A model generated the notes under the pieces. That model did no database searches and was not told where the DNA came from. It saw nothing but the letters and a program-made list of their open reading frames with translations. The position numbers and the translations under genes were made by a program. Of a stretch of DNA of 64,000 nt, positions 40,132 through 50,904 are shown piece after piece. The stretch lies in assembly GCF_023336905.1 (NCBI RefSeq), contig NZ_JAMBLS010000006.1, positions 1 to 64,000 of the forward strand. Reading direction: 5' to 3'. Numbering within the stretch: position 1 is the stretch's first letter; every line of letters begins with the position of its first letter. This DNA comes from Bacteroides sp. ET71. GTDB lineage: Bacteria > Bacteroidota > Bacteroidia > Bacteroidales > Bacteroidaceae.

Positions 40132-41079
40132 ATGAAGACATTCAAACAAATCCTGCTTGCCGCCGCTTTGTTGATAGGCGGCACATGTGCAACCTATGCG
40201 CAAGAGAAAACGACGACGGCAGGCGTGCCCGTAGTCAAGTTGAACAACGGCGTAGAGATGCCCCGCTTCGGCATCGGCACCTTCCTCCAGCCCAGCGATG
40301 AAGTGTGCGAACAGTCGTGCCTCACCGCCCTGAAAGCCGGTTATCGCCACATCGACACCGCCCATGCCTATCAGGACGAGGCCGGTGTAGGCCGTGCCGT
40401 CAAGGAGAGCGGCATCCCCCGCGAGGAGATATGGATTACCAGCAAGCTCTGGCCCACGGAATACGGCGAGGGCAAGACACTGAAAGCCATCGACGAGATG
40501 CTGAAGCGGATGCAACTGAACTACATCGACCTGCTCTACGTTCATCAGCCCGTGGGCGATTTCGTGGGGGCATGGAAGGACATGGAGAAGGCGGTGAAGA
40601 TGGGCAAGGTGCGCGCCCTCGGCATCAGCAACTTCGACGCCAACGATGAAGTATGGAACACGATTATGAAGGAGGTGACCATCAAGCCCGCCGTGCTCCA
40701 GATGGAGTGCCACCCCTACGCCCAGCGTGTGGAGATGCGCAAGAAGGCCGCCAAGGGAGGCATCCAAGTGGAATGTTGGTTCCCGCTGGGAGGCGCGATG
40801 TCCAACGGTGCCCTGTTCAAAGACCCCGTGATAAAGAAGATTGCCACCGCACACGGCAAGACTCCGGCACAGGTCATCCTGCGCTGGCACATCCAGGAAG
40901 GCTTCTCCGTCATCCCCGGTGCATCGAATCCCGACTACATCAAAGAGAACATCCAAATCTTCGACTTCGCCCTGACTGATGCGGAGATGCAGCAGATGCG
41001 CTCGCTCAACAAGGAACAACGCTTCTTCAACGCCACGCTGGAAGATGTGGAACGGATGGTTTGGGGAGCGAAGCTGTAA
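40132..41079 (+). CDS. Exported aldo/keto reductase
   Basis: 315 residues with an N-terminal signal (M-K-T-F-K-Q-I-L-L-A-A-A-L-L-I-G-G-T-C-A-T-Y-A-Q). An AKR barrel follows: V-E-M-P-R-F-G-I-G-T, H-I-D-T-A-H-A-Y (Asp, Tyr), I-T-S-K-L-W (Lys), L-L-Y-V-H-Q-P (His) and V-I-P-G-A-S-N-P-D-Y-I-K-E-N. NADPH is not normally present in the periplasm, so either the signal is not cleaved, another electron donor is used (such as the neighbouring flavodoxin-ferredoxin protein), or export is not real. Third gene of the operon, 17 bases after the EFR1 gene. Confidence 0.88.
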   Translation: MKTFKQILLAAALLIGGTCATYAQEKTTTAGVPVVKLNNGVEMPRFGIGTFLQPSDEVCEQSCLTALKAGYRHIDTAHAYQDEAGVGRAVKESGIPREEIWITSKLWPTEYGEGKTLKAIDEMLKRMQLNYIDLLYVHQPVGDFVGAWKDMEKAVKMGKVRALGISNFDANDEVWNTIMKEVTIKPAVLQMECHPYAQRVEMRKKAAKGGIQVECWFPLGGAMSNGALFKDPVIKKIATAHGKTPAQVILRWHIQEGFSVIPGASNPDYIKENIQIFDFALTDAEMQQMRSLNKEQRFFNATLEDVERMVWGAKL

Positions 41080-41201: not shown

Positions 41202-41564
41202 CTATTCTGTCATTTCCGCTTTCTCCAATATCCGCACCATTTTCGGGCGGAAATCATTTCCCCATTGTTCCAGCATCCGGATAATGGGCATAAGGCTCCG
41301 TCCGTCGTCCGTGATGGAATATTCCACATGGGGCGGAAGTTCGGGATAAATCGTTTTCTCAATCATGCCGTGCATTTCCAGTTCTTTCAACTGCTGGTTG
41401 ATGACACGGGGGCTGGTATCCTCAAAATGCCGGTGCAGTTCACTGGGACGTTTGCAGCCTCTCTCCAGTTCGTAGAGGATGCACGATTTCCACTTGCCAC
41501 CCATGACTTCCATGGCTATGGCCACACCGCAATCCAGGTCTAAGGGTATTTTCTTCTTATACAT
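41202..41564 (-). CDS. HxlR-family transcriptional regulator
   Basis: A 120-residue winged-helix protein from the Met at 41564 (M-Y-K-K-K-I-P-L-D-L-D-C-G-V). The HxlR pattern V-M-G-G-K-W-K-S-C-I-L-Y-E-L-E-R-G-C-K-R-P-S-E-L-H-R and S-P-R-V-I-N-Q-Q-L-K-E-L-E-M-H-G-M-I is clear. Two or three cysteines near the helix (D-C, S-C, G-C) are the residues used for thiol sensing of aldehydes or oxidants in studied members such as HypR and YodB. It is divergent from the TIGR04076 gene, convergent with the reductase operon, and a plausible regulator of either. Confidence 0.9.
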   Translation of the reverse strand: MYKKKIPLDLDCGVAIAMEVMGGKWKSCILYELERGCKRPSELHRHFEDTSPRVINQQLKELEMHGMIEKTIYPELPPHVEYSITDDGRSLMPIIRMLEQWGNDFRPKMVRILEKAEMTE

Positions 41565-41590
41565 ATATTTGATGTTGTCAATTCGCAGGA

Positions 41591-41598
41591 CAAAAATA
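41591..41598 (-). promoter_or_regulatory. -7 box of the HxlR gene
   Basis: TATTTTTG on the minus strand (CAAAAATA on plus) lies 27 bases upstream of the start. The facing TATCTTCG at 41669-41676 is a one-mismatch -7 candidate for the divergent TIGR04076 gene, so the two promoters share a 70-base region. Confidence 0.5.
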
Positions 41599-41700
41599 GT
41601 GATTTTATGACGAGAAACGGATATAGGGGCAAATTTATCTATATATGAATAATTTGCCCGTACTTGCGTAATGCTATCTTCGCACACAAAAAAGGGTAAA

Positions 41701-42165
41701 ATGGACAGACGTAAGTTTTTCAAGCAAGCCGGTATATCGGCTTTGGCAGTGGCAATGAGCGGCAATGTGCTGCCAGCCCAAGGTGAAGAGTTGTTTTATA
41801 ATCATCCTAATGTGAACAATAATATGAACAAGCGTATGAAACACAAATGTAAGATTACCATCCTGAAACGGGAGTGTTACAAGGATTTGCAGGCGGAATA
41901 TCTGGCAGACCCCAAGTCGGGACCCTGCCCCTATTTCCACGAAGGGCAGGAAATCATGGTGGACAGCGACAATTTCTTCCGCATGTTAAACGGGACATTC
42001 TGTGCCGAGGCATGGGACTGCATCAGCCGCTACGTCTATGCGGCATTGCAGGGCGGTTCCATTATGCAGGGCTGGACGAACGACGAAAAGGTGATGATAA
42101 CCTGCTGCAACGATGGCACGCGCCCAGTCATCTTTAAGTTGGAGCGGATAGATGAAGAGGTTTAG
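41701..42165 (+). CDS. TIGR04076-family protein with an export-type N-terminus
   Basis: A 154-residue protein. The first 45 residues are an extra leader (D-R-R-K-F-F-K-Q-A-G-I-S-A-L-A-V-A-M) of twin-arginine style. The remainder is a small Cys-rich domain: C-K-I-T-I-L-K-R-E-C-Y-K-D-L, G-P-C-P-Y-F-H-E-G-Q-E, A-E-A-W-D-C-I-S-R-Y-V-Y-A-A-L-Q-G-G, T-C-C-N-D-G-T-R-P-V-I-F-K. This spacing is characteristic of the uncharacterised TIGR04076 family. The function is unknown; next to an HxlR regulator and reductases a redox role is plausible. The first copy of the dispersed repeat begins about 30 bases downstream. Confidence 0.75.
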   Translation: MDRRKFFKQAGISALAVAMSGNVLPAQGEELFYNHPNVNNNMNKRMKHKCKITILKRECYKDLQAEYLADPKSGPCPYFHEGQEIMVDSDNFFRMLNGTFCAEAWDCISRYVYAALQGGSIMQGWTNDEKVMITCCNDGTRPVIFKLERIDEEV

Positions 42166-42639: not shown

Positions 42640-43539
42640 CTATTCATATATTCCGTTCCGGTAATCCTGCAAATATTGCGTGAACGTCTTCCCTGTCTGC
42701 TGTTTGAAGAAGCGCATTAAGTGGCTGGGGTCGGAGAAATGGAAATCGTCCGCCAGTTCGCTGACGGTGCGGTTGGAGAAGAGCAGTTCGTTCTTCAGTT
42801 CTTCCAGCAGGCGTTGTTTCAGCAGATGGGCGGCTGATACGCCAAACTGCGCCATGACCGAAGTATTCAGCGTGATGCGGCTGATGTGAAGCTTGTCGGC
42901 ATACTCCTGCACCCGCTGCATGGTGCGGATGTTCTGTTCCAGCAAATCCTTGTATTGGAAGGCATAATTGTTCTTCGCGATTTCTACGGGCAGGCGGTAT
43001 GCGGCGGCATACGCACGGTTGATAATCAGCAGCAGGTAATAGAGCACGGACACAATGAGGTTGTACGTGTCCGCCACGGGATGCAGCAATTCCTGTTTGA
43101 TTTTGCCGAGCAGGCGCATGTATTCCGCCAGTTCTTCGGGCGAGGCATACAGGTAGGGCGGCGTATCAGTCTGATAATAGTACAGCAAACGATAGACAAA
43201 GAACTTGTCGGCAATGAACGTGCGCATGAAGTCTTCGCGGAAGATGAGGAACGTATAATCCAATGCCGCCTCGTCCACATGCCACTCCTGTTGCTGGTGG
43301 GGCGAAAGGAGCAGCACCATGCCGTCGTGCAACTCTATCTTGCGGAAGTTCAGCAGCAGGAAGCCGTTTGCCTTCCGAAGAAAATAAAAACTGAAGAAGT
43401 CCGTCTTGAACCGCTTGTATTCGGTCAGTACGGGACCGATGTCCCTGTTCGTGGCGGTATTGATGTAGAAGTCCACGCCGCAATCCGTCTTGCTGAACGG
43501 CACGCTGACCAATCGTTCGGGGTTGATTATCTCTTTCAT
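42640..43539 (-). CDS. AraC-family transcriptional regulator
   Basis: 299 residues. The N-terminal half is a cupin-like sensor (about 20-110: F-R-K-I-E-L-H-D-G-M-V-L-L-L-S-P-H-Q-Q-Q). A helical linker leads to two C-terminal HTH motifs (about 205-295: V-Q-E-Y-A-D-K-L-H-I-S, V-S-E-L-A-D-D-F-H-F-S-D-P-S-H-L-M-R-F-F-K-Q-Q-T-G-K-T). It is divergent from the sirtuin operon and the likely controller of it. The ligand is unknown. Confidence 0.9.
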   Translation of the reverse strand: MKEIINPERLVSVPFSKTDCGVDFYINTATNRDIGPVLTEYKRFKTDFFSFYFLRKANGFLLLNFRKIELHDGMVLLLSPHQQQEWHVDEAALDYTFLIFREDFMRTFIADKFFVYRLLYYYQTDTPPYLYASPEELAEYMRLLGKIKQELLHPVADTYNLIVSVLYYLLLIINRAYAAAYRLPVEIAKNNYAFQYKDLLEQNIRTMQRVQEYADKLHISRITLNTSVMAQFGVSAAHLLKQRLLEELKNELLFSNRTVSELADDFHFSDPSHLMRFFKQQTGKTFTQYLQDYRNGIYE

Positions 43540-43671: not shown

Positions 43672-44574
43672 ATGGTAGCAAAAGAAAAGATAGACTTGTT
43701 AAGAAAGAAGATTGACGAGGCCGATGCCATTGTCGTGGGCGGCGCGTCGGGGATGTCCGCCGCTTCTGGATTCGTGTTTTACTATCAGGACGATGAAGTA
43801 TTCCGCAAACTGGCAGGCGGGTTAGCGAGGAAATACGGGATACACAACATGTTCGATGCCTTTTACGACCGTCGCCTCACACGGGGCGAGCATTGGGCCG
43901 TGGTGTTGCGCACCATTAAATACATCTATGATTGCCACACGGGCGATACGTATACGGACTTGGCGGAACTGTTGGAAGGCAAGGATTACTACATCGTCAC
44001 CACCAATCAGGACGCGCAGTTCTATCGCGTGTTCCCTGCCAACCGCATTACGCGTATACAGGGCGACTGGCGTTACTGGCAGTGTTCGCAACCCTGCCAC
44101 GACAATATCTATGACAATCACACCGAGGTGATGTGGCTCTGCGACGCCATCCAGCAGGATGCCTTGCCCGACAAGCTGATACCCCGTTGCCCGCATTGCG
44201 GCCGCCCCATGGCACCTTGGGTGCGTTCACGCGAGTTCCTGCAAGGCACGTTCTACCACCGCGAGATGAAGCGTTATATGAACTTCCTGCAACGTAATGC
44301 CAACCGCAAGACGCTTTTCTTGGAGTTGGGCGTAGGCATGATGACCCCGATGTTCATCAAGGAACCGTTTATGAACATGGTGTATCAATGGCCGAATGCC
44401 TTTTACGCCACGCTCAATCCGCAGCATGCTCTTGTGCCGAAAGAGATTGCAAAGAAAAGCCTCGCCATTAGCGACGACATTGCCATTATCTTGAAACAAC
44501 TGCTCAGCAAGTCCACCGCCGGAATGAAGGAGTTTAATGTAAAGGAAGCGTTTAACCCTGCAAGAGTATATTGA
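43672..44574 (+). CDS. Class M-like sirtuin (His-to-Gln, zinc Cys present)
   Basis: A 300-residue Sir2-fold protein. The NAD loop G-G-A-S-G-M-S-A-A-S-G is at 23-33, and T-N-Q-D (111-114) matches the T-x-N-x-D motif. The catalytic His of deacetylases, normally in H-G, is replaced by Gln130 (R-I-Q-G-D-W). Zinc-type cysteines are at 138, 142, 173 and 176 (C-P-H-C). Gln in place of His, with an Asn nearby, is the hallmark of the SirTM sirtuins, which add ADP-ribose rather than remove acetyl groups. The usual SirTM partners (macrodomain, GcvH-L, LplA) are absent here. It is followed 91 bases later by a second sirtuin-like gene. Confidence 0.8.
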   Translation: MVAKEKIDLLRKKIDEADAIVVGGASGMSAASGFVFYYQDDEVFRKLAGGLARKYGIHNMFDAFYDRRLTRGEHWAVVLRTIKYIYDCHTGDTYTDLAELLEGKDYYIVTTNQDAQFYRVFPANRITRIQGDWRYWQCSQPCHDNIYDNHTEVMWLCDAIQQDALPDKLIPRCPHCGRPMAPWVRSREFLQGTFYHREMKRYMNFLQRNANRKTLFLELGVGMMTPMFIKEPFMNMVYQWPNAFYATLNPQHALVPKEIAKKSLAISDDIAIILKQLLSKSTAGMKEFNVKEAFNPARVY

Positions 44575-44583
44575 ACTGGCCGT

Positions 44584-44627
44584 TTGCCTTGGCTGGACGG
44601 AGGCATTGCCTTGGCTGGATGGAGGCA
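44584..44627 (+). repeat. 22-bp tandem duplication between the sirtuin-like genes
   Basis: TTGCCTTGGCTGGACGGAGGCA is immediately repeated with one change (GATGG). Each unit ends in TGCC...GGCA, so it can fold back weakly. A further small inverted repeat (GCTTGATTCAAGC) follows at about 44631-44643. Its location between co-directional genes suggests mRNA processing or differential stability. Confidence 0.75.
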
Positions 44628-44665
44628 AAAGCTTGATTCAAGCCTGATATTTTTAACAATTAACT

Positions 44666-45433
44666 ATGACGACAATGAATGAAATACAACGGGCTGCCCA
44701 AGCCATAGCCCAAGCTGATGCCCTGCTGATAGGAGCCAGCAACGGGCTTTCCATCGCCGAAGGCTACCACGTGTTCGCCAATAACGAAATGTTCCGTCGC
44801 CAGTTCGGCGACTTTGGACAGAAGTACGGTATACGGAATGTCATCGAGGGGTGCTTCTTCCGATACCCGACGGAATGGGAAAGGACAGAGTTCCTGCAAC
44901 GCCTCGTGCAATGCTGGGTGAAGGAGTATCGTCCCTCGCAGGTGATGAAAGATTTGCTCGCCACCGTGGGCGGCAAAGATTACTTCGTCCTCACCTCGAA
45001 TGCCGACACGCATCTGGAATTGTCCGGATTCGAAGCGGAAAAGGTCTTCGAAGTGGAAGGCACTTTTGAGGATATGCTGGAGCACCGCACACCCACGGAC
45101 AAAAGCCGTCAGGCAAATGAGTTCCTCCGGCGTTACAGCGGCAAGTACATCGTCATCCTGGAATTGGGCATCGGTAAGCACAATCGCTTCATCAAGCAGC
45201 CCTTGATGCAACTGGCAACCCACGAACCACACGCCGTTTACATCACGCTGAACCTGACACCGGAACTGTACATTCCCGATGCCATCGCCCACAAATCCGT
45301 TGGACTGGCAGGCGATATCGCCGTCACACTCAACAGACTGAAGAACGAACTTTATCAAAATGGCATTTATTCCCCTGTTTTAGGCATAGAGGTACGGGAA
45401 GATTCTACCGAACTTCGCAACCGTAAACATTAA
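44666..45433 (+). CDS. Degenerate sirtuin-like protein (His-to-Glu, no zinc site)
   Basis: 255 residues with the same N-terminal plan as the preceding gene: an NAD loop G-A-S-N-G-L-S-I-A-E-G at 23-33 and T-S-N-A-D (110-114). The catalytic His position is Glu131 (F-E-V-E-G-T-F). Only two cysteines (63 and 83) are present, neither in a zinc-type pair, and the zinc lobe is shortened. It is either a partner or regulator of the neighbouring sirtuin, or an NAD-binding or NAD-hydrolysing protein with another chemistry. The start could also be at the fourth codon (44675). Confidence 0.7.
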   Translation: MTTMNEIQRAAQAIAQADALLIGASNGLSIAEGYHVFANNEMFRRQFGDFGQKYGIRNVIEGCFFRYPTEWERTEFLQRLVQCWVKEYRPSQVMKDLLATVGGKDYFVLTSNADTHLELSGFEAEKVFEVEGTFEDMLEHRTPTDKSRQANEFLRRYSGKYIVILELGIGKHNRFIKQPLMQLATHEPHAVYITLNLTPELYIPDAIAHKSVGLAGDIAVTLNRLKNELYQNGIYSPVLGIEVREDSTELRNRKH

Positions 45434-45446
45434 AACATAGAAGATA

Positions 45447-46220
45447 ATGGAAACAACAACTATCCGTTTGGTGCGCAATGCCACCTTGAGAATCAATTAT
45501 GCAGGACACAACATCCTTGTTGACCCGTTCTTTGCCGACAAGGGAACCATCCAGTCGGCACTTGGCGTGTATAAAAGCCCCCGTGTGCACCTGACCATGC
45601 CTATCTGTGAAGTGACAGAAGGGTTGGACATGGTGTTGCAGACCCACATCCATCCCGACCACTACGATGAAACGGTAAAGCAACATCTGCCGAAGGACAT
45701 CCTTTATTATACCCAACCGCAGGATAAGGCGACGGTGGAACAGGATGGCTTCACTCGAGTGGAAGTAATCGAAGACAAGATGACAATGGGGGACATGACC
45801 ATCTATCGTGTGAGCGGCCATCACGGTTTCGGCAGGATTGGCGAGATAATGGGACCCGTATCGGGCTATGTCTTGACGGCAGAAGGATGCCCAACGGTCT
45901 ATCTCATGGGAGATTGCAAATGGGAGGACTGCATCCGCGAAATGGCGGAACGGTTCAAGCCCGACTACATCGTGGTGAACAGCGGCGGAGCGGTTTTTCC
46001 GGAGTTTTCCAAGGTGGACGGCTGCATCATCCCCGATGAAGCCGAGGTAATGCAAATGCTGGACGAACTGCCTGCACATATCAAGCTGATAGCCGTCCAC
46101 ATGGATGCCATTGACCATTGCCAGACCACTCGTGAAATCTTGCGCAATGAGGCTTGGCATCACGGTGCGGACATGAACCGCCTGATTATCCCGGAAGATG
46201 GAGAAACCATTAACTTATAA
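45447..46220 (+). CDS. MBL-fold metal-dependent hydrolase (UlaG-like)
   Basis: 257 residues of the metallo-beta-lactamase fold. The metal motif H67-x-H69-x-D71-H72 is in T-H-I-H-P-D-H-Y-D. Further ligands are likely His in S-G-H-H-G-F, Asp in M-G-D-C-K-W and His in A-I-D-H. The opening strand R-I-N-Y-A-G-H-N-I-L-V-D-P-F-F is typical of UlaG/PhnP-like lactonases and phosphodiesterases. It lies 13 bases after the second sirtuin-like gene, so it is co-transcribed. A role in turning over an ADP-ribose or cyclic product is a guess from context only. Confidence 0.82.
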   Translation: METTTIRLVRNATLRINYAGHNILVDPFFADKGTIQSALGVYKSPRVHLTMPICEVTEGLDMVLQTHIHPDHYDETVKQHLPKDILYYTQPQDKATVEQDGFTRVEVIEDKMTMGDMTIYRVSGHHGFGRIGEIMGPVSGYVLTAEGCPTVYLMGDCKWEDCIREMAERFKPDYIVVNSGGAVFPEFSKVDGCIIPDEAEVMQMLDELPAHIKLIAVHMDAIDHCQTTREILRNEAWHHGADMNRLIIPEDGETINL

Positions 46221-46242
46221 ACCCTATAAAAAGAATACAGAA

Positions 46243-46692
46243 ATGAAAGAAATTAAGAATGTGGCAGCAGCCGAAAACTTCAGCGCAATAAGCGTTGGCA
46301 AACTGAATGAACTGAGTGACTATGTGATAGAACTTTCTCCCGAAGTGAAGATTCCGGGAAAGGTGTTTGGAGGTGCGGCACTTCAAGCTACCGGCAGCGA
46401 GTTCTCCTTCCAGATGTTCCAGCCCGGCACGGAAACGGGATTCCTCCACACCCACAAGAAGCACGAGGAGCTTTACTTCTTCCTTGCAGGAAAGGGCGAG
46501 TTCCAAGTGGACGGACAAGTGTTCCCCGTTGAAGAAGGCAGCGTGGTGCGCGTGTCTCCCAACGGAAAGCGCAGTGTGCGCAACAACGGGACAACTCCGC
46601 TCGTGATGCTCTGCGTACAGTATCGGGGCGATACGTTCACGGCAGAAGACGCAACCGACGGCGTGATTCTGAATGAACCGGTGAAGTGGTGA
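46243..46692 (+). CDS. Cupin-domain protein
   Basis: 149 residues from the Met at 46243, 22 bases after the hydrolase stop. A single cupin barrel shows the metal motif F-L-H-T-H-K-K-H-E-E-L-Y-F-F-L-A-G-K-G-E-F, then P-V-E-E-G-S-V-V-R-V-S-P-N-G-K-R, with His ligands and a Glu for a divalent metal. The ligand or reaction is unknown. It is last in the sirtuin operon and ends about 33 bases before the second dispersed repeat copy. Confidence 0.85.
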   Translation: MKEIKNVAAAENFSAISVGKLNELSDYVIELSPEVKIPGKVFGGAALQATGSEFSFQMFQPGTETGFLHTHKKHEELYFFLAGKGEFQVDGQVFPVEEGSVVRVSPNGKRSVRNNGTTPLVMLCVQYRGDTFTAEDATDGVILNEPVKW

Positions 46693-46921: not shown

Positions 46922-48334
46922 TTAATGAAGTAAAGTAGAAAATATCATTCCAAGTTCTTTAACTAATTTTTCCAATTCTTCTTCCGAAAGCGAAGCGTAG
47001 CCTATCCGCATCCCGGTTCTTCCACAGCTATCGCAAAATACTGGGATGGAAAGGTGATGCTTTTCCAATGTATCTAGAAGCTGGTCTGGACTGATTGGTT
47101 GCAAAGGAATAATCCACAATGCCAATCCACCTTGCGGAATGGAGAAAGTCGCATAATCTATCAGATGTCGTTCCAACAGTTCGATGAAATACATGCGTTT
47201 CTGCTTGTAATATTTGGTGGACTTATTGATATGCCGATGGATGACTCCGTCTTCTATCAATTCAAGAATAGCAGCTTCCATCACCATATCACCCTGTATG
47301 TCAATAATCCTACGAAGATTACCAAGGGCTGAAACATTTGCTTCTGAAGTAGCAATATAGCCTACACGGATGGCTGGGGCTATGATTTTGCTGAACGTAC
47401 CAATATAAACGTATAAATCAGAAGGAAGCATGGCACTCAAGGGCATGATGGGAGTAGGCCGGAAACTAAAATCGCAATCATAGTCGTCTTCTATCATTAA
47501 TAAGTGATAACTCATTGCCAATTCAATTAATTGCCTGCGGCGTTCGGTTGAAAGTTCCACCATGGTAGGATATTGATGGCGGGGAGTCAGATAAACAGCC
47601 TTGACATTTTCAAAAAGATGTGGCAGCATGTCATTTACTATGATTCCATTTTCATCCACATCAATGGGAATCACTTTAATTCCGGCTTGTAAAAAAACCT
47701 CGTAAGCTTTTTCATAACAAGGTTGCTCCATAATTAAACAGTCATCTGGTCTCAATAGAGCATGTGCCACCAGATAAAGCCCCATCTGACTGCCGCGTGT
47801 GATAAATATTTCTTCGGTCCGTGTGCGCATCCCCCTTTCGTGATTCAACATAATGGATACAGCTCTACGGAACCTGAAAATACCGTTCGGATCGTTGTAA
47901 CCCAGCACGTTGTGTCTGCCTTTCATACGGAGTAAACGGCGATAAGCCCGTGCCAATTCATTCACTGGAGCAATACGTGTGTCTGGTGCGCCATCGTCCA
48001 CTCTTAATATAAGGGACGATGGTTTGATGTCCTCTACTTCTTCTGCTCGTATCACCTGTTTGTCGTCATGGAATACAGGAATAGCCACATATAACCCTGA
48101 TCGTTCTTTGTTGACTAACCAACCGGACAAGATCAACAAATCCATTGCATTGACAACACTCTTTCGGCTCACACCAAGTTCTGTTGCCAATACTCGACTG
48201 CCGGGTAAAGCATCACCGGGTTTCAGACCACCGGACATAATCTGTGCTTGTATCTTTTGTGCAATCTGTTTATAGAGAGGAATCTGTTTATTCTCTTTGT
48301 CCAACTCTATCGCAAAATACCATGGTCGTATCAT
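46922..48334 (-). CDS. MocR/PdxR-type regulator (GntR HTH fused to an aminotransferase fold)
   Basis: 470 residues. A GntR-type winged helix fills about 1-85 (L-Y-K-Q-I-A-Q-K-I-Q-A-Q-I-M-S-G; S-R-V-L-A-T-E-L-G-V-S-R-K-S-V). The remainder is a fold-type I aminotransferase domain with the PLP-binding Lys in Y-I-G-T-F-S-K, with L-M-I-E-D-D-Y-D-C-D-F before it. MocR proteins sense PLP; PdxR members control vitamin B6 synthesis. It is divergent from an aminotransferase, a PNPOx-like gene and a B6-kinase-like gene, which supports B6-linked control. Confidence 0.9.
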   Translation of the reverse strand: MIRPWYFAIELDKENKQIPLYKQIAQKIQAQIMSGGLKPGDALPGSRVLATELGVSRKSVVNAMDLLILSGWLVNKERSGLYVAIPVFHDDKQVIRAEEVEDIKPSSLILRVDDGAPDTRIAPVNELARAYRRLLRMKGRHNVLGYNDPNGIFRFRRAVSIMLNHERGMRTRTEEIFITRGSQMGLYLVAHALLRPDDCLIMEQPCYEKAYEVFLQAGIKVIPIDVDENGIIVNDMLPHLFENVKAVYLTPRHQYPTMVELSTERRRQLIELAMSYHLLMIEDDYDCDFSFRPTPIMPLSAMLPSDLYVYIGTFSKIIAPAIRVGYIATSEANVSALGNLRRIIDIQGDMVMEAAILELIEDGVIHRHINKSTKYYKQKRMYFIELLERHLIDYATFSIPQGGLALWIIPLQPISPDQLLDTLEKHHLSIPVFCDSCGRTGMRIGYASLSEEELEKLVKELGMIFSTLLH

Positions 48335-48396
48335 CTGGACTCCTTATTTATAATAGTTCTGGATATAATCTGGAGGCCAAATATACACTACTTTTG
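48334..48396. promoter_or_regulatory. Overlapping divergent promoters with TCTGGA direct repeats
   Basis: A plus-strand -7 box TACTTTTG (48389-48396) serves the aminotransferase and a minus-strand TATATTTG (48378-48385) serves the MocR gene; they are only three bases apart. TCTGGA occurs at 48334-48339, 48358-48363 and 48369-48374, the last two 11 bases apart. Spaced direct repeats are the typical target of MocR regulators, so binding here could switch both genes. No -33 box at normal spacing is evident for either. Confidence 0.5.
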
Positions 48397-48424
48397 CAAC
48401 ATAATAAAGGCAAAACAGAAGAAT

Positions 48425-49558
48425 ATGAAGCTATTTGAAGTTTATTCCCTATATGACATCAACCTGACACATGCCAAAGGATGCTATGTGTATGATGCCT
48501 GCGGACAAGAATACTTAGACTTATATTGTGGGCATGGAGTAATTTCTGTCGGTCACACGCATCCTTATTACGTTAATAAGCTGACAGAACAGTTGAACAG
48601 AATAGGGTTCTATTCCAATGCTGTAATCAATGGATGTCAGCGTGATTTCGCAATAAAACTTGGAGAAATTACAGGTTATAAGGACTATGCGTTATTCTTA
48701 TCAAACAGTGGAGCGGAAGCTAACGAAAATGCCATAAAGCTGGCCTCTTTTTCCAATAAGCGGAAAAAGGTACTTAGTTTCAACGGAGCTTTTCATGGAC
48801 GTACTGCCGCCGCTGTTATGGCAACGGACAATCCAACTATTGTTGCGCCAGCAAACCAAAGCAGCCACTTCACCAAGATATCTCTGAATGATATCACCTC
48901 GTTAAAGAGAGAACTGCGGACCGAGGAATATTGTGCTGTCATCATGGAAGGCATACAAGGGGTGAATGGCGTAAGATTCCCTTCGGCAGAATTTGCAAAG
49001 GAGGTGCAAGATAGTTGTGCGGAAACTGGAACCGTCTTTATTATGGATGAAATCCAGTCCGGCTGTGGACGGACCGGGCGTTACTTCGCCCATCAGCATT
49101 GGAATATCAGGCCGGACATCATTACGATGGCTAAAGGCATAGGAAATGGCTTCCCTCTTGCAGCTACAGCTATTAGCCCCATGTTTACCCCTGTAATCGG
49201 GCAACTGGGAACGACTTTCGGAGGGAATCATTTAGCTTGCGTGGCTGGTTCTGCCGTTATCGACATCATGCTTCGAGAACATTTGATGGATAATGCCAAG
49301 ACAACGGGAGAATATTTGTTAGAAGAACTTGGGAAACTACCTTACATAAGTGAAGTGCGGGGAAAAGGGTTGATGATAGGAATAGATTTTACTTTGCCTG
49401 CCTCAAAAGTACGGAATGCATTGATAACAAAAGAACATGTCTTGACTGGCATATCGGGACAGAACACTCTTCGCTTACTTCCTCCTTTATGCCTTTCTAT
49501 GGAAGATGCGGACTTATTCATTCATAAATTGGCTCATTGCCTTTCTAAGATTCATTGA
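48425..49558 (+). CDS. Class III aminotransferase (acetylornithine/GABA type)
   Basis: 377 residues from the Met at 48425 (M-K-L-F-E-V-Y-S-L-Y-D-I). Upstream in-frame codons lie in the divergent promoter region and are not used. Family features are Y-V-Y-D-A-C-G-Q-E-Y-L-D-L-Y-C-G-H-G, S-N-S-G-A-E-A-N-E-N-A-I-K-L-A, the PLP Asp in F-I-M-D-E-I-Q-S-G-C-G-R-T-G and the Schiff-base Lys in I-T-M-A-K-G-I-G-N-G-F-P. The nearest family is ArgD/succinylornithine aminotransferase, but being slightly shorter and next to B6 genes it may act on another amine. Confidence 0.88.
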   Translation: MKLFEVYSLYDINLTHAKGCYVYDACGQEYLDLYCGHGVISVGHTHPYYVNKLTEQLNRIGFYSNAVINGCQRDFAIKLGEITGYKDYALFLSNSGAEANENAIKLASFSNKRKKVLSFNGAFHGRTAAAVMATDNPTIVAPANQSSHFTKISLNDITSLKRELRTEEYCAVIMEGIQGVNGVRFPSAEFAKEVQDSCAETGTVFIMDEIQSGCGRTGRYFAHQHWNIRPDIITMAKGIGNGFPLAATAISPMFTPVIGQLGTTFGGNHLACVAGSAVIDIMLREHLMDNAKTTGEYLLEELGKLPYISEVRGKGLMIGIDFTLPASKVRNALITKEHVLTGISGQNTLRLLPPLCLSMEDADLFIHKLAHCLSKIH

Positions 49559-49582
49559 TAGACAAACAAAAAACAGAGAACG

Positions 49583-50071
49583 ATGATTTACGATAATTCA
49601 AATGTAAGAAGGCAAAACCGTCTTATGCCTGAAGATAAGGCTTACCAACTTTTGCAAGAAGGGGAATACGGAGTTATGTCAATGATTACTCCGGAGGGTA
49701 TGCCCTACGGTATTCCGATTAATTATGTATGGGATGGAAATGATAGCCTGTATATCCATTGTGCTCCAGAAGGAAAGAAATTACGTTGCTTACAGTCTTC
49801 GCCACAAGTATCCTTTGCCATTGTAGGCCATACGCATGTCATTTCCGGGAAATTCACGACCAATTACGAAAGTATTATTCTCACTTGCCATGCCCAAATA
49901 GGATTGACTCCGGAGGAACGTATGGAAGCCCTACGTCTGTTGGTCAGGAAGTATGCGCCTTCGTTTCAGGAATTGGGAGAGAAATATGCACATGGTTCTT
50001 TCCATCGCACGGAGATTATAAAACTAAGCATACTGTCGTTTAGTGGTAAATGTAAAAACATCCCAGAATAA
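49583..50071 (+). CDS. PNPOx-like flavoprotein (Nim-related)
   Basis: 162 residues of the split-barrel FMN fold: R-L-M-P-E-D-K-A-Y-Q-L-L-Q-E-G-E-Y-G-V-M-S, Y-G-I-P-I-N-Y-V-W, Y-I-H-C-A-P-E-G-K-K. These match the pyridoxamine-5'-phosphate-oxidase-like superfamily and particularly the NimA branch known in Bacteroides for 5-nitroimidazole reduction. It is 24 bases after the aminotransferase and two bases before the kinase gene, so all three form one operon. A resistance role is possible but not supported by context; B6-related flavin chemistry is equally likely. Confidence 0.8.
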   Translation: MIYDNSNVRRQNRLMPEDKAYQLLQEGEYGVMSMITPEGMPYGIPINYVWDGNDSLYIHCAPEGKKLRCLQSSPQVSFAIVGHTHVISGKFTTNYESIILTCHAQIGLTPEERMEALRLLVRKYAPSFQELGEKYAHGSFHRTEIIKLSILSFSGKCKNIPE

Positions 50072-50073
50072 GT

Positions 50074-50904
50074 ATGGAAAAGACATTGCACATACCTAAA
50101 ATTCTGCTGATAGGAGGCAGCGAACCGCTTGGATGCGCAGGTATTCAAGCGGACTTAAAAGCAGTGTGTGCTTGTGGCGGATATGGAGCCGCAGCCCTTA
50201 GTTGCATAGTGGATGAGGATACACATCGAGTAAAAAGTATTCATCCACTTCCCGCACAACTAATTGTCGAACAATGCATCTCTTGTCTGCAAAGCATGGA
50301 TGTAGATTGCATAAAGACAGGATTGCTTTATTCCGCAGAGACCGTCAGGACCATAGGGGAAATCTTACATCGCTTCAACAATATTCCGTTAATCATTGAC
50401 CCGGTATTTGTAGGCTATGCCAAGACGCTATTGATAACACCAGATGTAATCGAAGCTTATCAGAAATATTTGTTCCCTTTGGCCGCCCTTATCACACCTA
50501 ATGCGACCGAATGTGAAATCTTACTGCAAAGGTCTCTTAAGACAGATAACGTCCAAAGCGAATTGAAAGAATTATGCCAATGGGGAAATTACAGTATAAT
50601 AATGAAATCAGTCTTTATGGAGGGGAAGGTCTGTGATTATTTTTATGAAAGTAAAACAGATTCCCTGAAAGCTTATTCCAAAGTTCCTATTAGAAAAAAA
50701 GATGAAGGAATCAGAGGTGCAGGCGACAGTTTTGCATCATCTATTGCAACTTATTTGGGGAAACAATATCCACTATCAGATGCCATATGGAGAGCCGAAT
50801 TTTTCATAGACAATTCCATTCAGTTTGGCCATAAAATAGACTTCTCCTCAAAGTTCAACGTGGTACATTCATTCGGAAGCGATGATTTCAAAAAGATAAA
50901 TTAG
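50074..50904 (+). CDS. ThiD/PdxK-like hydroxymethylpyrimidine or pyridoxal kinase
   Basis: 276 residues of the ribokinase fold as in ThiD/PdxK: G-G-S-E-P-L-G-C-A-G-I-Q-A-D-L-K-A near the N-terminus, I-K-T-G-L-L-Y-S-A-E-T-V, I-D-P-V-F and I-T-P-N-A-T-E-C-E, and the ATP/catalytic R-G-A-G-D-S-F-A-S-S. In ThiD the loop is normally S-D-S-G-G-G-A-G-I-Q; here S-E-P-L-G-C is altered, so substrate may differ. With MocR and a PNPOx-like neighbour a pyridoxal or pyridoxamine salvage kinase is the favoured guess. Last gene before repeat copy C. Confidence 0.8.
   Translation: MEKTLHIPKILLIGGSEPLGCAGIQADLKAVCACGGYGAAALSCIVDEDTHRVKSIHPLPAQLIVEQCISCLQSMDVDCIKTGLLYSAETVRTIGEILHRFNNIPLIIDPVFVGYAKTLLITPDVIEAYQKYLFPLAALITPNATECEILLQRSLKTDNVQSELKELCQWGNYSIIMKSVFMEGKVCDYFYESKTDSLKAYSKVPIRKKDEGIRGAGDSFASSIATYLGKQYPLSDAIWRAEFFIDNSIQFGHKIDFSSKFNVVHSFGSDDFKKIN

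Follow-up and report, generated by a model that had tools for sequence, protein, structure and literature searches.

Paired sirtuins with glutamine and glutamate at the catalytic position: a predicted two-subunit relative of SirTM in Bacteroidota and Bacillota

In a 64,000-nucleotide stretch of Bacteroides sp. ET71 (contig NZ_JAMBLS010000006.1; hereafter the window), two consecutive genes, S1 and S2, encode sirtuins. The catalytic His of the HG motif of canonical sirtuin deacylases was found in neither protein when each was aligned to PDB 5a3a and to its homologues: S1 carries Gln at this position and S2 carries Glu. The reading we favor, at slightly better than even confidence, is that the pair would act as one heteromeric SirTM-type ADP-ribosyltransferase that consumes nicotinamide adenine dinucleotide (NAD), with S1 as the catalytic subunit and S2 as its partner. 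This is the simplest reading because S1 has the transferase residues of SirTM, whereas S2 lacks them and is nevertheless kept with S1.

Homology searches with S1, the window S2 and a Bacillota S2 returned 1143, 1103 and 1218 hits, respectively, and the best 120 of each were listed, the window's own proteins included. S1 matched 5a3a, the SirTM of S. pyogenes, with an E value of 5e-49. The place of the catalytic His in S1 is Gln130 (bases 44059-44061), which aligns to SirTM Gln137. Gln was present in 120/120 listed S1 homologues, and the Gly that follows it in the QG motif (IQG in the window) in 119/120. Asn112, equivalent to SirTM Asn118, was seen in 119/120 with one gap, Arg185, equivalent to SirTM Arg192, in 118/120, and the four zinc cysteines in 119, 120, 120 and 120 of the 120. 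Activity of SpySirTM falls dramatically when Asn118, Gln137 or Arg192 is mutated, and a Gln137His change abolishes it (PMC4518038). Judged by alignment, S1 has every residue shown to be necessary in SirTM (Asn, Gln and Arg). An AlphaFold model of S1 had a pLDDT of 89.3, and dN/dS for S1 was 0.05-0.14, with several comparisons saturated or failed.

S2 is a SirTM relative by fold as well (5a3a, E 4e-20). Its catalytic position is Glu131 (bases 45056-45058), the same place as SirTM Gln137. Glu was fixed here in 240/240 listed homologues, 120/120 listed through the window S2 and 120/120 through the Bacillota S2. The core was retained (Asn in 240/240, Asp in 239/240), and the place matching SirTM Arg192 was Glu in 114/120 listed Bacillota-type S2. 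S2-specific motifs included SNG (GAG in SirTM), TSNxDxH and FExEG, and S2 has an Asn near the TP that holds the pyrophosphate in SirTM. A dN/dS of 0.06-0.19 indicated purifying selection, although several comparisons were saturated or failed. On these alignments, S2 is changed at both catalytic side chains, and the changes are maintained. A preliminary description of this DNA had likened S1 to SirTM and had proposed that Gln130 and Glu131 replace the catalytic His; all three points were borne out, and a misread catalytic position was rejected by the alignments of both proteins to 5a3a and to the listed homologues.

The same description held that only the first sirtuin keeps zinc-type cysteines. 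This is correct for the window, but not as a property of S2. Bacteroidota-type S2, meaning the window's S2 and its listed relatives, lacked the zinc module (CxxC in the last 140 residues in 0/120), whereas both cysteine pairs were retained in 119/120 listed Bacillota-type S2. The absence of the cysteines is therefore, as far as the alignments indicate, a loss in one lineage and not a general trait of S2. In Lactobacillaceae, S2 carried a C-terminal Cupin_5 domain in the two records tested by Pfam, one above and one just below the cut-off.

The pair was rare in whole genomes: it occurred in 8/399 of the window's family, where one remnant was also seen, in 8/61 of one genus and in 2/393 of the order. 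S1 adjoined S2 in 11/11 Bacteroidales genomes with S2. Further pairs were seen in Parabacteroides An277, Phocaeicola coprocola and two Bacteroides, and plasmid-borne pairs in Mesobacillus, Paenibacillus and several Lactobacillaceae; the Bacillota pair neighborhoods examined were all on plasmids. S1 and S2 overlapped by 8 bases in five Lactobacillaceae records. In a tree of 60 rows, from which fifteen rows (near-copies, fragments and spurious frames) had been left out, one branch set the S1 rows apart (support 100/99) and another the S2 rows (100/100), and both clades spanned Bacteroidota and Bacillota. Macrodomain-linked SirTM rows formed no single supported clade in this tree. Distances among S1 mirrored those among S2 over 14 pairs (r 0.955, Spearman 0.90), and 0/10000 permutations were as high. 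One protein of 552 amino acids (P0313) combined an E-type with a Q-type half, as a fusion of S2 and S1; MAFFT aligned the S1 and S2 families both to the same half of it. The earlier proposal that the two sirtuins are one unit agrees with this adjacency, the mirrored trees and the fused protein, and S1 and S2 appear from their sequences to be an old pair inherited together in two phyla.

Neighborhoods were compared over 23 pair loci, which were selected for the presence of both S1 and S2. One contig apparently entered twice (L126 and L005), and L006/L127, L079/L131 and L059/L066/L133 were near copies (the L133 record ends within S2), leaving about 17 independent pair loci. The stretches examined were 4.7 to 19 kb long (18 kb around the window's pair), and an absent partner may lie outside them. 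A GNAT-like gene lay between S1 and S2 in 5/23 loci; in the relatives L005-L007 it encodes 196-198 amino acids and its GNAT match is weak. In other relatives S1 and S2 touched or overlapped.

SirTM is described alongside a macrodomain, as a macrodomain fusion or as part of the lipoate operon (PMC4518038, PMC11490716). A Zn-macrodomain was found in 0/23 pair loci compared with 30/32 single QG-type (SirTM-type) loci, within the stretches examined. The latter tally combined 18/18, 9/10 and 3/4 from three scans; at the level of the order, 24 of 35 hits were examined, the eleven weakest being left out, and ten sirtuin hits that carry HG were excluded from the count. The two single loci where none was found were L164, with a solo S1-like gene, and L138 (Mycoplasma), which carries lipoate-type genes and was scanned under the standard code only. 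The preliminary description had stated that none of the SirTM partners is present beside the pair. This stands for the macrodomain, of which none was found in the window, and for GcvH, whose one copy in the genome lies on a contig other than that of the pair; LplA, OYE (old yellow enzyme) and LLM (luciferase-like monooxygenase) were not searched for. The one macrodomain gene of the genome (L132:2805-3260) lies on contig 23, again apart from the pair. It had no BLAST match to a Zn-macrodomain reference, and by eye we take it to be TARG1/DarG-like. S2 takes the neighboring position that the macrodomain gene has beside SirTM. Since no macrodomain eraser was found at the pair loci, either S2 would erase or inhibit, or the product would need no eraser, because it is a small molecule or because NAD is simply broken down.

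Genes for an HD protein, a nicotinamidase and a nicotinate phosphoribosyltransferase (NAPRT) together followed the pair at two loci of Bacillales (L058, L062) and two of Bacteroidales (L081, L128); a weak NAPRT match in L061 was not counted. The Bacillales plasmids carried S1-S2-HD-NAPRT-nicotinamidase and a metallo-beta-lactamase (MBL) gene, upstream and divergent in L058 and downstream in L062. L081, which belongs to a different family of the order, had the arrangement AraC-S1-S2-HD-nicotinamidase-NAPRT-Fic, with genes overlapping or nearly touching. L128 gathered nearly all partners at one place: AraC on the plus strand, cupin and MBL on the minus strand, and then S1-S2-HD-nicotinamidase-NAPRT-Fic on the plus strand, with HD in two frames. 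The HD proteins were homologous (44% between L081 and L058), and no solved relative of them was found by sequence. NAPRT was of the PRK09243/TIGR01513 kind in L058 and of the PRK05321/TIGR01514 kind in L081 and L128. This difference in subfamily suggests that putative NAPRT genes were recruited beside the pair independently or were replaced at a later time. The nicotinamidases scored below the NCBIfam cut-off for PRK11609, and that of L058 was short (152 amino acids); those of L081 and L128 appear, by eye, to retain the metal and cysteine residues that such an enzyme should have. The strongest hint that the pair would free nicotinamide is this shared salvage function, supplied beside it by different NAPRT subfamilies.

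We propose that S1 would be the catalytic subunit, using the SirTM-type Asn, Gln and Arg. S2 keeps the NAD-binding core, but its active site would be acidic, with Glu in place of the Gln and either Glu or a deletion in place of the Arg; on that account it would most likely bind NAD or ADP-ribose and activate S1, restrain it or present substrate to it, without repeating S1 chemistry. The unit would move ADP-ribose onto a target and release nicotinamide, which nicotinamidase and NAPRT, in the operons that have them, would return towards NAD. The neighbors of the window pair are a SaxA-like hydrolase, a cupin and an AraC-type regulator, which suggests that a small reactive molecule may induce it. 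The preliminary description had pictured a heteromeric ADP-ribose-based sirtuin system with a different downstream hydrolase. Its sirtuin part fits the SirTM-like S1 and the pair as a unit; the hydrolase part fits less well, the MBL being optional, the cupin loosely linked and the MBL unsupported as an eraser.

Several observations weigh against the heteromeric transferase. S1 carries TTNQD where SirTM has TTNAD or TTNVD, and GVGMMTP where the class motif is GVGx[NT]TP (TP in 120/120 listed homologues, with Met at the [NT] place in the window); given these deviations, the activity of S1 itself may differ from that of SirTM. Salvage genes lie next to the pair in no more than 4/23 loci, and MBL and cupin genes also occur apart from it. 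The predicted S1:S2 complex is argued from gene-level evidence. The mirrored distances are due in part to shared species history, and the fused P0313, known from one contig of 2610 bases, could be an assembly join. In one genome (G708), a solo Q-type sirtuin (L164:7986-8906) scored best with S1 and had neither S2 nor a macrodomain within 16 kb; this is possibly the ancestral single form.

The missing macrodomain raises the possibility that S2 is itself an eraser or antitoxin, which would remove the ADP-ribose added by S1 or block S1 in place of the Zn-macrodomain, with Glu131 as the general base for hydrolysis. The neighbor slot taken by S2, the lack of a Zn-macrodomain in the stretches examined at all 23 pair loci against its presence at 30/32 single loci, and a strict Glu at the ribose-contacting position of a retained NAD-binding core all agree with such a role. 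However, to our knowledge no sirtuin hydrolyzes ADP-ribosyl bonds, and the salvage genes beside some pairs suggest net use of NAD and no balanced switch; we regard this role as unlikely. A broader form, in which S2 would be a sirtuin whose Glu acts at the ribose and either reverses an ADP-ribosylation begun by its Q-type partner or finishes it in another way, so that the macrodomain could be dispensed with, is a speculation to which we give somewhat less than one chance in five. Removal of ADP-ribose by the MBL is a separate proposal and was rejected as unsupported, since the protein is SaxA-like and was not found in 11/23 pair loci.

If no eraser is needed, the pair could be a NAD glycohydrolase like FAM118A/B, lowering NAD or making an ADP-ribose signal, with the salvage genes serving recovery. 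A heteromeric NAD-processing sirtuin pair does exist (PMC12700824), salvage genes were seen at 4/23 and Fic at 7/23 pair loci, and the Fic of L128 matched the PADLOC model SoFic (E 2.6e-64). The closest relative of S1 is nonetheless the ADP-ribosyltransferase SirTM, and PADLOC models gave no match at E 0.1 to S1 or S2 of the window or of L058, the scan having covered these two genes of the window; we consider a glycohydrolase improbable. The pair might instead ADP-ribosylate a small molecule, such as an antibiotic or a toxic electrophile, and the MBL, the cupin and the GNAT-like protein would then carry out additional steps of detoxification. An eraser would then be unnecessary, in keeping with the absent macrodomain, and a SaxA-like MBL in pair loci of both Bacteroidota and Bacillales (12/23), the GNAT-like gene (5/23) and the AraC regulator would find a place. 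The MBL was not found at the remaining 11/23 loci, although some stretches were short, the GNAT-like match is weak, and SirTM is known to modify a protein, GcvH-L (PMC4518038); a small-molecule target appears distinctly doubtful. That S2 is a decaying duplicate of S1 without a joint function is barely credible. S2 lost its zinc module in Bacteroidota and lacks the Gln and Arg of SirTM, and a remnant cassette and broken copies exist. Yet its Glu is invariant among the listed homologues, its dN/dS is low, and it forms a separate old clade with distances that mirror those of S1; decay was rejected on conservation, clade and dN/dS. The heteromeric transferase therefore remains our preferred reading.

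The pair was also compared with known systems. S1 and S2 share the fold of SirTM (Rack et al. 2015, PMC4518038; Ariza et al. 2024, PMC11490716), and S1 shares its QG motif, Asn/Gln/Arg and zinc cysteines. SirTM is a sirtuin with a macrodomain, whereas here there are two sirtuins, and S2 has Glu for the Gln and Glu or nothing for the Arg. The accessible text of these two papers makes no mention for SirTM of the links to nicotinamide salvage, Fic and a SaxA-like MBL that are seen at some pair loci. S2 has neither the QG motif nor the Arg192 of the SirTM class. A link to a macrodomain gene, which is one defining feature of class M, is missing for S1, and S2 in addition has no QG motif; we therefore set the pair outside class M proper, as a related group that probably works partly like SirTM. 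Human FAM118A and FAM118B, weak alone and efficient in NAD processing only jointly (PMC12700824), are likewise two paralogous sirtuins. The FAM118 proteins are ThsA-like, form filaments and each depend on a His and an Asn in the active site (PMC12700824); S1 and S2 lack the His. Macro-sirtuin toxin-antitoxin-like pairs are also two-gene units with an ADP-ribosylating sirtuin (PMC9503650), but the partner there is a macrodomain and here a second sirtuin. No Q/E sirtuin pair was found described in the literature, judged by titles and abstract openings and with subscription papers outside the scope. A 2012 comparative-genomics paper on NAD-utilizing pathways may already have noted such neighborhoods.

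Gene coordinates, the short spacings downstream of S2 and the divergent AraC gene were exact on re-checking (Table 1). The salvage and Fic genes found beside the pairs of some relatives are not visible in the window.

Table 1. Positions of the sirtuin pair and its neighbors in the window.
Feature	Position	Strand	Remarks
AraC-type regulator	42640-43539	-	divergent from S1
S1, Q-type sirtuin, 300 aa (amino acids)	43672-44574	+	SirTM-like by sequence
S1-S2 intergenic gap, 91 bases	44575-44665		
S2, E-type sirtuin, 255 aa	44666-45433	+	SirTM fold without zinc module
MBL-fold hydrolase, SaxA-like	45447-46220	+	starts 13 bases past S2; HxHxDH metal motif intact
Cupin_2 protein, 149 aa	46243-46692	+	22 bases past the MBL gene; nearest solved relative 3cew

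Over the 23 pair loci, the neighbors were MBL (12), Cupin_2 (8), Fic (7), Cupin_5 (5), GNAT-like (5) and HD (4). The window MBL matched SaxA (PDB 6brm) over nearly its whole length (E 2e-43, residues 8-255 of 257) and its THIHPDH fits HxHxDH; the likeness to this isothiocyanate hydrolase is one of sequence. The Mesobacillus MBL matched 6brm with E 1.3e-66, and dN/dS for the MBL was 0.05-0.18, with several comparisons saturated or failed. In the genus of 61 genomes, the MBL family was present in 7/8 pair genomes and 7/53 others (p 6e-5; a weak match in G990 was dropped) and lay beside the pair in 5/8. The cupin family was present in 6/8 pair genomes and 26/53 others (p 0.16), beside the pair in 3/8, and was also seen in two SirTM-macrodomain loci (L083, L096). 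Across both phyla the MBL is a real but optional partner of the pair; the cupin is loosely associated with it. The linkage of an MBL hydrolase and a cupin claimed in the preliminary description thus holds for the MBL, though not as a fixed partner, and is weak for the cupin, which shows no genome-wide enrichment even though Cupin_5 is fused to S2 in Lactobacillaceae. Its idea of electrophile stress would suit an MBL whose nearest solved relative is SaxA. An AraC gene of the window's kind was found in 14/15 Bacteroidota pair loci, and the fifteenth contig starts about 250 bases before S1.

Exchange and decay of the cassette were also apparent. In L004, S1 and S2 were 100% and 99% identical to those of the window and the MBL only 89%, which suggests that the sirtuin genes were recently exchanged between species without the MBL. 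The remnant cassette of G168 (L097) kept AraC, MBL and cupin with an S2 cut to its last 29 residues; S1 was looked for in G168 and not found. Frame splits in S1 of L129, S2 of L130 and HD of L128 may be real decay or assembly error. A phage-borne system was rejected: among phage records there were fragments and a Staphylococcus contig carrying a SirTM linked to a macrodomain, but no pair, and a scan of viral_contigs with the S2 alignment gave no match.

Other gene groups flank the locus. An aldo/keto reductase gene (40132-41079) adjoins an HxlR regulator that is divergent from a TIGR04076-family protein (41202-42165). The NCBIfam RrpA/RrpB models match this HxlR below cut-off, and HxlR matches were also seen in 10/18 SirTM-macrodomain loci. 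On the other side (46922-50904), a MocR/PdxR-type regulator is divergent from aminotransferase-like, pyridoxamine-oxidase-like (Nim-like, below cut-off) and, by eye, kinase-like genes; these are perhaps a vitamin B6 group separate from the sirtuin pair.

In this pair, a sirtuin system would have divided its catalytic position between Gln and Glu, a division kept across two phyla. If S2 does use its Glu on ADP-ribosylation begun by S1, the writer and eraser of one ADP-ribose switch would share a sirtuin ancestor. The pair bears on SirTM-like enzymes without a macrodomain eraser and on nicotinamide recycling beside them in both phyla, and it would allow direct tests of what decides between deacylation, ADP-ribosyl transfer and hydrolysis in sirtuins. 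Since Phocaeicola coprocola is among the carriers, genetic work in a gut commensal may be feasible.

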